Shown here piece by piece: positions 3,857 through 52,755 of a stretch of DNA of 64,000 nucleotides. The position numbers and the translations under genes were made by a program. The notes beneath the pieces are model-generated. The model saw only the letters and a list, made by a program, of their open reading frames with translations, was not told where the DNA came from and did no database searches. The stretch lies in contig JQNH01000001.1 in NCBI GenBank assembly GCA_000745135.1, positions 1,302,001 to 1,366,000 on the forward strand, in the 5' to 3' direction. The stretch is from Rhizobiales bacterium YIM 77505 (GTDB taxonomy: Bacteria; Pseudomonadota; Alphaproteobacteria; Rhizobiales; Beijerinckiaceae). Position 1 is the first letter of the stretch, and the number at the start of each line of letters is the position of its first letter.

Positions 3857-4099
3857 CTAGTGCGCCCGAGCCGCGCTCCAGGCGTGGAACGCATCGATGA
3901 TCTCGCGGACGCGCTCCCGATTGGCCGGGTAGCGCTCGAGGTCCAGGCTGCGCAGGCGCGCGACGCTGTGGGCGTCGTACCATCTGTCATCGCCCGCCCC
4001 GCCGTAGGGCGCCACGGGGACGTCTTGGTAGTCGGCAGGGCGGTAGCGGAGTGCGTCGACGGGGCAGGATTCGATTGCGCTGCTAGTGACGTAGGGCAT
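3857..4099 (-). CDS. Small hypothetical protein of the accessory region
   Basis: I do not recognise this 80-residue product. It begins MPYVTSSAIESCP, is soluble, mildly basic at the C-terminal half, and has no signal peptide or membrane segment. Support for a real gene comes from an AAAGGA ribosome binding site nine bases before the ATG and from a good terminator shortly after the stop. It is the second gene of a minus-strand pair with the orphan at 4131-4472. Its location between an integrase module and an XRE regulator suggests an element-encoded accessory protein. Confidence 0.5.
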   Translation of the reverse strand: MPYVTSSAIESCPVDALRYRPADYQDVPVAPYGGAGDDRWYDAHSVARLRSLDLERYPANRERVREIIDAFHAWSAARAH

Positions 4100-49219: not shown

Positions 49220-49352
49220 CACCTCTCCCCGGTGGGGAGAGGTCGGCGAGCGTCAGCGAGCCGGGTGAGGGGCGGCTCTTCATCCTGACAAGGTCCACAC
49301 CTCACCCGCCCTCCGCTTCGCTCCGGTCGACCTCTCCTTCCAGGGAGAGGTG
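49220..49352. repeat. Long palindromic intergenic repeat, unit 1
   Basis: Left arm (49220-49275) starts CACCTCTCCCCGG, forms a 10-bp hairpin (ACCTCTCCCC/GGGGAGAGGT) and ends GCCGGGTGAGGGGCGG. The right arm (49298-49352) is its imperfect inverse, ending TCCTTCCAGGGAGAGGTG. A 22-base spacer separates the arms. Confidence 0.85.
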
Positions 49353-49368: not shown

Positions 49369-49498
49369 CACCTCTCCCCGGTGGGGAGAGGTCGGCGAGC
49401 GTCAGCGAGCCGGGTGAGGGGCGGCGCCCTTGCCGGAGAAGGCGCGCACTTCACCCCCCGCTTCGCTCCGACCCTCCCCCTTCCCGGGGAGGGGGCGC
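49369..49498. repeat. Long palindromic intergenic repeat, unit 2
   Basis: The left arm is the same as in unit 1; the right arm is diverged (CTTCACCCCCCGCTTCGCTCC, then a CCTCCCCCTTCCCGGGGAGGGGG hairpin split by TT). It lies directly before the end of the NAT fusion gene and may serve as its terminator. Confidence 0.8.
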
Positions 49499-51750: not shown

Positions 51751-51880
51751 CACCTCTCCCCGGTGGGGAGAGGTCGGCGAGCGAAGCGAGCCGGGTGAGG
51801 GGCGGCTCTTCATCCTGACAAGGTCCACACCTCACCCGCCCTCCGCTTCGCTCCGGTCGACCTCTCCTTCCAGGGAGGTG
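51751..51880. repeat. Long palindromic intergenic repeat, unit 3
   Basis: Same left arm, spacer and right arm as unit 1, with GCGAAGCG in place of GCGTCAGCG in the left arm and a 2-base shorter end (CAGGGAGGTG). It starts 20 bases after soxR. Confidence 0.85.
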
Positions 51881-51901
51881 GGCGGCGGCGCCGCCGTGCG
51901 T

Positions 51902-52024
51902 CACCTCTCCCCGGTGGGGAGAGGTCGGCGAGCATCAGCGAGCCGGGTGAGGGGCGGCACCATATCCGGACATGGCCCACACTCACCCGCCGCTGCGCGG
52001 CGACCTCGCCTTTCGGGAGAGGTG
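51902..52024. repeat. Long palindromic intergenic repeat, unit 4
   Basis: Intact left arm (CACCTCTCCCCGG) with a different spacer (ACCATATCCGGACATGG) and a diverged right arm (ACTCACCCGCCGCTGCGCGG, TTTCGGGAGAGGTGG). Confidence 0.8.
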
Positions 52025-52062
52025 GGCGTGAGGAGAGGTGGACGGCGGCTGGCGCCCTTCCT

Positions 52063-52115
52063 AACCTCTCCCGGGTTGGGACGAGGTCGGCGCGCGTCCA
52101 CGCGCCGGTGAGGGC
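52063..52115. repeat. Palindromic repeat arm directly before the DUF559 gene (unit 5)
   Basis: A degenerate left arm (AACCTCTCCCGGGTTGGGACG, GAGGTCGGCGCGCGTCCACGCGCCGGTGAGGG). Its last base is one or two bases before the DUF559 ATG; its GGTGAGGG end acts as the ribosome binding site. No right arm follows; the gene takes its place. Confidence 0.7.
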
Positions 52116-52469
52116 ATGGATCGGTTCAAGGCTCGCGCGCGGGAGCTCCGGAAACAGGACACGAGCGCGGAAGCACGGCTGTGGCAGGCCCTACGCAACC
52201 GCCGTGTGGGAGGCCGGAAGTTCCGTCGGCAGGAAGCGATCGAGGGCTACGTCGTCGACTTCTTCTGTCCCGCGGCGAAGCTCGTCATCGAGGTTGACGG
52301 CGCGACGCACTCGACCGAGCAGGAGCTGGCCCGGGATGCTTACCGCACCCGGGCGCGCGAGCGCTGCGGGCTGCATGTGATCCGGTTCACGAACCACGAG
52401 ATCCATACGAACCTCGACGGCGTGCTGGAAACGATCCTGGCAGAACTCGAACACCGCGTTCATCTCTGA
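52116..52469 (+). CDS. DUF559 (Vsr-like) endonuclease-domain protein within palindromic repeats
   Basis: The 117-residue protein has the restriction-endonuclease-like fold of DUF559. It shows RELRKQDTSAEARLWQALRNRR, GRKFRRQEAIEGYVVDFFCPAAKLVIEVDGATH (catalytic D-x-E-x-D, with VDF and IEVDG), and a C-terminal GLHVIRFTNHEI. DUF559 is related to very-short-patch repair nucleases. The gene is enclosed without gap by repeat arms at 52063-52115 and 52475 onward. An alternative start eight bases upstream lies in another frame. A role in repeat processing is only an inference from context. Confidence 0.88.
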   Translation: MDRFKARARELRKQDTSAEARLWQALRNRRVGGRKFRRQEAIEGYVVDFFCPAAKLVIEVDGATHSTEQELARDAYRTRARERCGLHVIRFTNHEIHTNLDGVLETILAELEHRVHL

Positions 52470-52474
52470 GCGCC

Positions 52475-52595
52475 CCCATCTCTCCTCGGCGGGCGTGAGC
52501 GCGCCAAGTGAGGGTCTGCTCCTCATTCGGAGACCGCCCACACCTCACCCGCCCTCCGCTTCGCTCCGGTCGACCTCTCCTTCCAGGAGAGGTGG
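52475..52595. repeat. Long palindromic intergenic repeat, unit 6
   Basis: Degenerate left arm (CATCTCTCCTCGGCGGGCGTG, CCAAGTGAGGG) starting six bases after the DUF559 stop, followed by an intact right arm (52541-52593) identical to that of unit 1 except for a shorter terminal hairpin. Confidence 0.75.
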
Positions 52596-52615
52596 ACGGC
52601 GGTGCCGCCGCGCCT

Positions 52616-52739
52616 CACCTCTCCCCGGTGGGGAGAGGTCGGCGAGCGTCAGCGAGCCGGGTGAGGGGCGGCGCTTCATCCTGAGAGGGCGCGCACCTCA
52701 CCCGCGCCTTCGGCGCGACCTCTCCTTCCAGGAGAGGTG
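52616..52739. repeat. Long palindromic intergenic repeat, unit 7
   Basis: Intact left arm, spacer CGCTTCATCCTGAGAGGGCGCG, and right arm with CGCGCCTTCGGCGCGACC replacing the CCTCCGCTTCGC part. It ends 16 bases before the L,D-transpeptidase stop codon. Confidence 0.8.
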
Positions 52740-52755
52740 GGCGGAGGCGGCGCGC

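Follow-up and report, generated by a model that had tools for sequence, protein, structure and literature searches.

In many bacteria, DUF559 genes lie between inverted palindromic repeat arms, an association that is close to certain, and we conclude that DUF559 is a repeat-associated nuclease that resembles RAYT but is unrelated to it. It probably supplies the partner that was lacking for a repeat family hitherto without a known enzyme. The gene and its arms may well represent a previously unrecognised class of single-gene mobile elements, present in several phyla, in which a Vsr-fold nuclease mobilises its cognate triplex-type palindromes as the non-homologous counterpart of RAYT/REPIN and colonises coding sequences in frame, those of valS, mfd and priA included.

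The window, that is, the whole stretch of 64,000 nucleotides analysed here, holds one DUF559 gene amid the repeats listed in Table 1, for which the unit coordinates are partly approximate. The original prediction had counted seven units within 3.5 kb, which was nearly exact, the repeats being six two-arm units plus one single arm. An intact arm consists of a hairpin (CCTCTCC..GGAGAGG), a second hairpin and a tail, GGTGAGGGG, and within a two-arm unit the second arm is inverted. The z values in Table 1 compare two units, folded as single-stranded DNA, with shuffled sequences; one fold is clover-like and the other is one long hairpin. The arm upstream of the gene terminates with GGTGAGGG at 52114 and the DUF559 ATG is at 52116, which leaves a single base between them and puts the arm end where a ribosome-binding site is expected, in agreement with the earlier description of an ORF that begins one or two bases past an arm whose end serves as its ribosome-binding site. 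A unit had also been placed six bases past the stop codon; the stop is at 52469 and the next arm, a degenerate one, begins near 52476, which confirms this spacing of six bases. Comparison of the window arms with Rfam gave no fitting curated RNA family and, besides tRNA, only matches below the cut-off. The YkuD-tRNA-HAD gene order of the window was common to three loci found by BLAST (G010 L184, G017 L182 and G064 L185), and none of the 29 loci of relatives contained a DUF559 match.

Table 1. Repeat units and DUF559 gene in the window (positions are those of the whole stretch).
Feature	Position	Strand	Remarks
Two-arm palindromic unit, REPIN-like, gene-less	49220..49352	+	
Two-arm palindromic unit with a less exact second arm; matches at 83% over the full length	49369..49495	+	
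Two-arm palindromic unit	51751..51882	+	51751-51880 forms one long hairpin, z -6.15
Two-arm palindromic unit	51902..52026	+	
Single arm	52062..52114	+	Hairpin 1 (CCTCTCCC...GGGACGAGG), hairpin 2, G-rich tail GGTGAGGG
DUF559 gene (117 aa) for a PD-(D/E)XK-type nuclease of Vsr fold that retains the conserved residues	52116..52469	+	
Two-arm unit 3' of DUF559 gene; first arm degenerate, second (inverted) intact	52476..52595	+	
Two-arm palindromic unit	52616..52741	+	36 genome-wide matches; clover-like fold, z -5.60

In the source genome (G000, 4.19 Mb in a single contig) the arm pattern matches 61 times and the reversed control pattern never, and the whole two-arm unit accounts for the 36 matches given in Table 1. 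It carries five DUF559 genes, four of which have a strong inverted pair (flanking-arm scores 186, 46, 62 and 70 for L001-L004), and the fifth, L005, scores 27 yet has hairpins on both sides. By eye, each of these genes has its own arm variant, and the types include CCTCTCC..GGTGAGGG, CCCCTCCCC..GGGGTGGGG and CCTTCCCC..GGAAGGGG.

The window protein belongs to PF04480 (DUF559; E 5e-37, 126 bits against a cut-off of 20.6), its Pfam matches being DUF559, MTES_1575 and DUF2726 only. Alignment with 53 of 72 other proteins (8 of the 80 were left out because of stops, missing starts or open ends) showed that E19, R38, Q39, D48, E59, D61, G62 and H65, among others, are invariant in all 54 sequences, window included. 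The AlphaFold model (pLDDT 89) is closest in fold to NGO0050 (PDB 3hrl, Z 16.7), followed by the homing endonuclease I-Bth0305I (PDB 3r3p, Z 12.4, rmsd 2.7 over 95 residues, with a sequence-profile match at E 3.4e-5) and Vsr (Z 10.4). Holliday resolvase and TnsA come next, at Z of about 7, a likeness that may reflect the common nuclease core only, and toxin B-subunit chains that appeared in the PDB sequence search were dismissed as low-scoring noise (E above 0.2). I-Bth0305I has a motif named EDxHD, which might correspond to E19, D48, H65 and D74 of the window protein. The DUF559 genes are under purifying selection, with dN/dS of 0.05-0.35 in 11 gene pairs, some of which have high or saturated dS. 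At L003, L012, L026 and other DUF559 loci the C-termini continue into the downstream arm (PTPPLEGEGR, PSPSRGG and PSPQGGGE), so that the final residues are encoded by the repeat.

The Vsr-like fold predicted by the model would suit an ordinary Vsr-like mismatch-repair enzyme to which the nearby repeats are incidental, as proposed for Caulobacter VsrA, a DUF559 protein that, according to the accessible part of its description, is required for SOS induction in cells without cytosine methylase (PMC12907096). We regard this as very improbable. The window protein had no match to the Vsr profile PF03852 at E 0.001, nor did any protein of the source genome. Against the mismatch-repair reading, true Vsr genes are unbracketed (an inverted arm pair in 0 of 26 loci tested with 500-nt flanks, four short ones of the 30 having been left out, against 65/83 for DUF559 tested likewise) and their number does not track arm number in the same 60 genomes used for DUF559 (rho 0.05), and DUF559 cassettes move and insert into genes.

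Enclosure was measured with a motif-free test, in which the 300 nt upstream of a gene were aligned locally with the reverse complement of the 300 nt downstream and a best score of at least 40 was taken as a pass. Within the same taxonomic family, 64 of 83 DUF559 loci passed; the set consisted of 85 loci, with weak, short or contig-end DUF559 rows left out, and the short loci L020 and L030 were left out of this count, as they were, together with L041, of the control comparison. The inverted arm pair was found around none of 30 cold-shock (CSD) genes and around 2 of 15 Y1 transposase genes. A broader, phylogenetically mixed set consisted of the best 80 loci among the matches listed, chosen by protein similarity only, of which the 72 with at least 300 bp of flank were used, and here 52 of the 72 DUF559 genes were enclosed against 3 of 577 neighbouring ORFs (p 9e-35). 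Chance proximity due to the arms being intergenic is ruled out by the neighbouring ORFs, the CSD genes and the Vsr genes. By record title, and many of the records are metagenome bins, these 52 enclosed loci from the best 80 listed include Alpha-, Beta- and Gammaproteobacteria and Desulfuromonadales, as well as Gastranaerophilales, Chloroflexi, Ignavibacteriae and Phycisphaerales. The original prediction that DUF559 genes sit beside arms more often than chance thus held against near-zero controls in both sets, and the pairing is not special to an alphaproteobacterial repeat, since record titles place it in several further groups as well.

Loci without a strong inverted pair (19/83 in the family and 20/72 in the broad set from the best 80 listed) mostly retain a hairpin on at least one side, 17 of the 19 and 17 of the 20, respectively. 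Overall, 80/83 family loci and 63/72 broad loci from the best 80 listed had a hairpin of this type on one side or both within 300 nt, compared to 42/577 ORFs, and a strict hairpin was absent within 300 nt from 3/83 and 9/72 loci, the latter again from the best 80 listed. DUF559 genes of close relatives in the same genomic place without repeats had been named as the case that would count against the pairing, and a few relatives do count against it, in that they have an arm on one side only (L013/L229 and L033/L221). In E. coli K-12, inspection by eye of ycjD (L035:3704-3741 and 3893-3930) showed, on the 3' side only and 166 bp downstream of the stop, a triplex-like motif, as well as a motif-like stretch spanning the stop region of the gene itself. 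Since this one-sided motif was seen by eye and ycjD was negative in the strict hairpin test, it was left out as support.

Arm number follows DUF559 number across genomes. In 60 genomes, the 36 that have a strong DUF559 match carry a median of 103.5 arm matches, against 6.5 in the 24 that lack one (p 2e-8); among these 24, G003, G039, G040 and G055 have a weak partial match. Arm matches were added over both strands, so that a perfect hairpin may count twice. The two numbers were correlated in these 60 genomes (Spearman 0.79), and the partial coefficient of 0.67 at fixed genome size rules out genome size as the sole cause. A weak relation to DUF559 number is seen for the reversed control pattern as well (rho 0.33, p 0.01, medians 4 and 2), so that base composition or genome size may account for a small part of the correlation. 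Among same-genus pairs that differ in DUF559 number, arm number differs in the same way in 11 of 12, the exception being G043 (182 arm matches, DUF559 absent) against G007 (104, one DUF559 with a stop). G006 has 283 arm matches and DUF559 only as two partial pieces, and it is possible that G043 and G006 hold relic repeat populations left after loss of the enzyme. The expectation that repeat number follows DUF559 presence is supported by the medians and the genus pairs, and the lack of correlation named beforehand as its counter-case is contradicted by the coefficient.

The same relation was observed within arm classes, where copy number tracks the DUF559 that bears the class; the relation is clear in class B and weak in class C. 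Class B hairpins (CCTTCTCC) have a median of 60 copies in the 12 genomes with a B-armed DUF559, 4 in the 22 with DUF559 of other classes only (p 0.0001 against B-armed) and 0 in the 26 genomes without an examined DUF559 locus, which include G011 and G059, where DUF559 rows are present and the loci short. The corresponding medians for class C were 22 (n=19), 5 (n=15) and 0 (n=26), with p 0.027. The repeat class CCTTCTCC..GGAGAAGGTGGC..GGATGAGGG, with matching DUF559 genes at L007, L011, L018 and other loci, reaches 153 hairpins in one genome (G030).

Arm sequence is tied to the protein and not to the genome that carries it, and arm class and DUF559 are co-inherited. In 34 of 45 paralogue comparisons, which are not fully independent, the arm resembled the one beside the closest DUF559 of a different genome more than those of paralogues in its own (p 3e-6). 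The Mantel rank correlation is weak, at 0.17, and was reached by none of 1000 permutations. On a tree of 112 DUF559 domains (24 had no clear arm class, which leaves 88), built from few columns and with many open forks, arm class takes 21 changes, compared to 38.6 with shuffled labels, and none of 200 shuffles was as low. The G-rich tail also tracks its own stem; in 109 arms with a scorable hairpin, tail against own stem scored 5.39 and against swapped tails 5.16 (maximum of 500 swaps 5.28). Cassettes that carry their own arms would, however, give the appearance of co-inheritance also with a protein that has no action on the arms.

Another idea is that of a passenger or domesticated partner, in which another enzyme spreads the arms and DUF559 is kept for regulation, with the arm as ribosome-binding site, or for policing of the repeats. 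The arm tail at the start codon of the window gene, the arm-rich genomes G043 and G006 without intact DUF559 and the purifying selection on DUF559 genes all agree with it, but the arm-gene-arm span (median 563 bp, quartiles 498 and 670, n=64) is too small for a second gene of usual size, arms enclose just the 3 of 577 neighbouring ORFs (loci from the best 80 listed), arm class follows protein clade, and Y1 transposases occur in 8 of the 60 genomes, the source genome not among them. We consider this explanation doubtful, and less probable than the homing-type drive discussed below. RAYT itself was rejected as mobiliser of the arms, given that six of the eight genomes with Y1_Tnp have few arm matches (G049 7, G014 15, G040 6, G055 6, G013 14 and G038 27); the two arm-rich ones, G022 (173) and G033 (235), have weak Y1 matches.

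That DUF559 cassettes move is well supported. Three cassette copies in G022 are 83-87% alike over 571-626 bp, with similarity that extends somewhat past the arms and unrelated sequence outside; two copies in G008 are 97% alike over 619 bp, with gene and downstream arms in common and a different upstream arm; and in G027 a pair of copies is 85% alike over 505 bp. In the source genome, the 517-bp cassette of L002 separates two ABC-transporter genes, for the binding protein and the permease, and is missing from the corresponding gap of the sister genome G031, which has 83-84% nucleotide identity on both sides, and from the gap in G017, G009, G011 and G016. The G031 gap holds a different palindromic repeat, TCATCCCGGACGC..GGATGACG (L193:1359-1499), in G011 stop and start are just 12 bp apart, and the more distant G007 (L198; permease 66% identical) has, by eye, a gene-less two-arm unit of another class in this gap, which seems to have been struck by different palindromes. 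The empty site was inspected, and the flanks are too diverged for a target-site duplication to be called.

Cassettes have also entered coding sequences. DUF559 and its arms lie in frame within mfd (L093:6612-10991) and valS (L118:7287-10496) of one Rickettsiales genome (records JAOIVE01), two insertions that derive from a single organism, and within priA (L114:7290-9920) of a Gastranaerophilales bin, with domains of the host protein matched on either side of each insert. In the reading frame, the arms become peptide linkers (PHPNPLPKEGEG and similar). In-frame arms of this kind recall Rickettsia palindromic elements. At L093 whole arm units are directly repeated on either side, and at L150 DUF559 lies upstream of recF in a single open frame. 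Phages and plasmids were rejected as main carriers, since the 2 phage and 33 plasmid records with DUF559 matches are all below 60% identity and several of the 33 plasmid records are of chromosome size.

Part of this evidence could also come from a homing-type drive only, in which DUF559 cuts gene-less arm-like sites and is copied into them through its arms, while solo units spread by other means. The nearest fold with known mobility is that of I-Bth0305I, the G008 copies have different upstream arms, as if copying tracts ended in arms, and both the direct repeats of arm units at L093 and the gene-less unit seen by eye in the G007 gap speak for it too. Against it, the L002 site has no such arms in the nearer gene-less relatives, namely G031, with its other palindrome, and G011, with its 12 bp. 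Moreover, the number of gene-less hairpins tracks DUF559 and, in class B, its arm class as well, which suggests that the spread of solo units, too, is linked to the enzyme, and we hold a homing-type drive alone to be unlikely.

We infer, with moderate confidence, that DUF559 cutting its own arms and thereby driving their spread is the most economical reading. DUF559 and its arms would form a minimal mobile partnership, which we are inclined to accept, in which the protein nicks or cuts its own arm class and host repair spreads the units. The small Vsr-fold endonuclease would recognise an arm of its class, made up of a pyrimidine/purine hairpin and, after it, a G-rich tail in which the purine side of the stem recurs. 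Recognition would probably take place on arms that are extruded or single-stranded at a replication fork, and nicking or cutting would follow at that point. PD-(D/E)XK hydrolases are not known to rejoin strands by themselves, and movement would consequently need host repair, which would copy from another arm-bearing locus. Two outcomes are envisaged: the arm pair may spread by itself, which would yield the many REPIN-like units without a gene, or the whole cassette of gene and flanking arms, about 0.56 kb long, may do so. Such a partnership would give a likely function to the widespread family DUF559 and an enzyme to a repeat class long described without one and linked to genome instability.

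Several known systems share part of this arrangement. NGO0050, Caulobacter VsrA and E. coli YcjD belong to the same Pfam family as the window protein. The accessible part of the VsrA paper does not mention palindromes or flanking repeats (PMC12907096), and no title or opening of an abstract found in the open-licence literature ties DUF559 to palindromic repeats. I-Bth0305I has its fold in common with the window protein, but the DUF559 gene differs in being enclosed by palindromic arms with many solo copies, and neither an intron family at the window locus nor an intein domain in the window protein was found.

In layout the arms correspond to the intrastrand triplex repeats (TM/PIT), in which a hairpin is joined by a third strand similar to the purine side of its stem. 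As far as the available text of that work goes, the triplex motif has been reported in more than 260 genomes (Holder 2015, PMC4666352) and consists of a C-rich strand, a purine strand, a loop and a second purine-like strand, occurs in inverted pairs and many copies, and lies at loci said to be unstable; the same text describes the E. coli K-12 triplex repeats as associated neither with mobile elements nor with a functional class of neighbours (PMC4666352). A 100-copy repeat of triplex type in Enterobacter 638 has been interpreted, in the part of the genome report at hand, as presumed terminators (PMC2869309). Unlike these descriptions, a specific nuclease family is found inside the repeats here, and the arm classes go beyond GGGAGAGGG.

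The closest likeness is to RAYT and its REP/REPIN repeats. In the accessible parts of the corresponding papers, two inverted REPs flank RAYT genes and coevolve with them, and REP abundance follows the gene (Nunvar 2010, PMC2817692). The features in common with DUF559 are the inverted palindromes around the gene, the co-evolution of gene and repeat class, the repeat number that goes with presence of the gene, the clusters of units beside it and the clover-like folding (PMC2817692, PMC3116915). The differences are that the DUF559 enzyme is a Vsr-fold nuclease and not a Y1/HUH tyrosine transposase, and that RAYT genes are described as single-copy in the available text of Bertels and Rainey (2011, PMC3116915), whereas DUF559 cassettes have near-copies within one genome. 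No Y1 (HUH) transposase domain was found in the window protein by Pfam, and no such gene in the source genome; DUF559 thus works in a RAYT-like manner but is not a member of the RAYT system, whose defining transposase domain is absent. The RAYT-comparable role first proposed for the protein is partly supported: its genomic predictions hold, RAYTs being too rare here to account for the arms, the cutting at arm hairpins is an inference, and the pairing extends beyond an alphaproteobacterial repeat. If true, two unrelated nuclease folds have independently joined the same partnership with palindromic repeats, and the question of why such partnerships persist becomes open to comparison and to simple in vitro tests.
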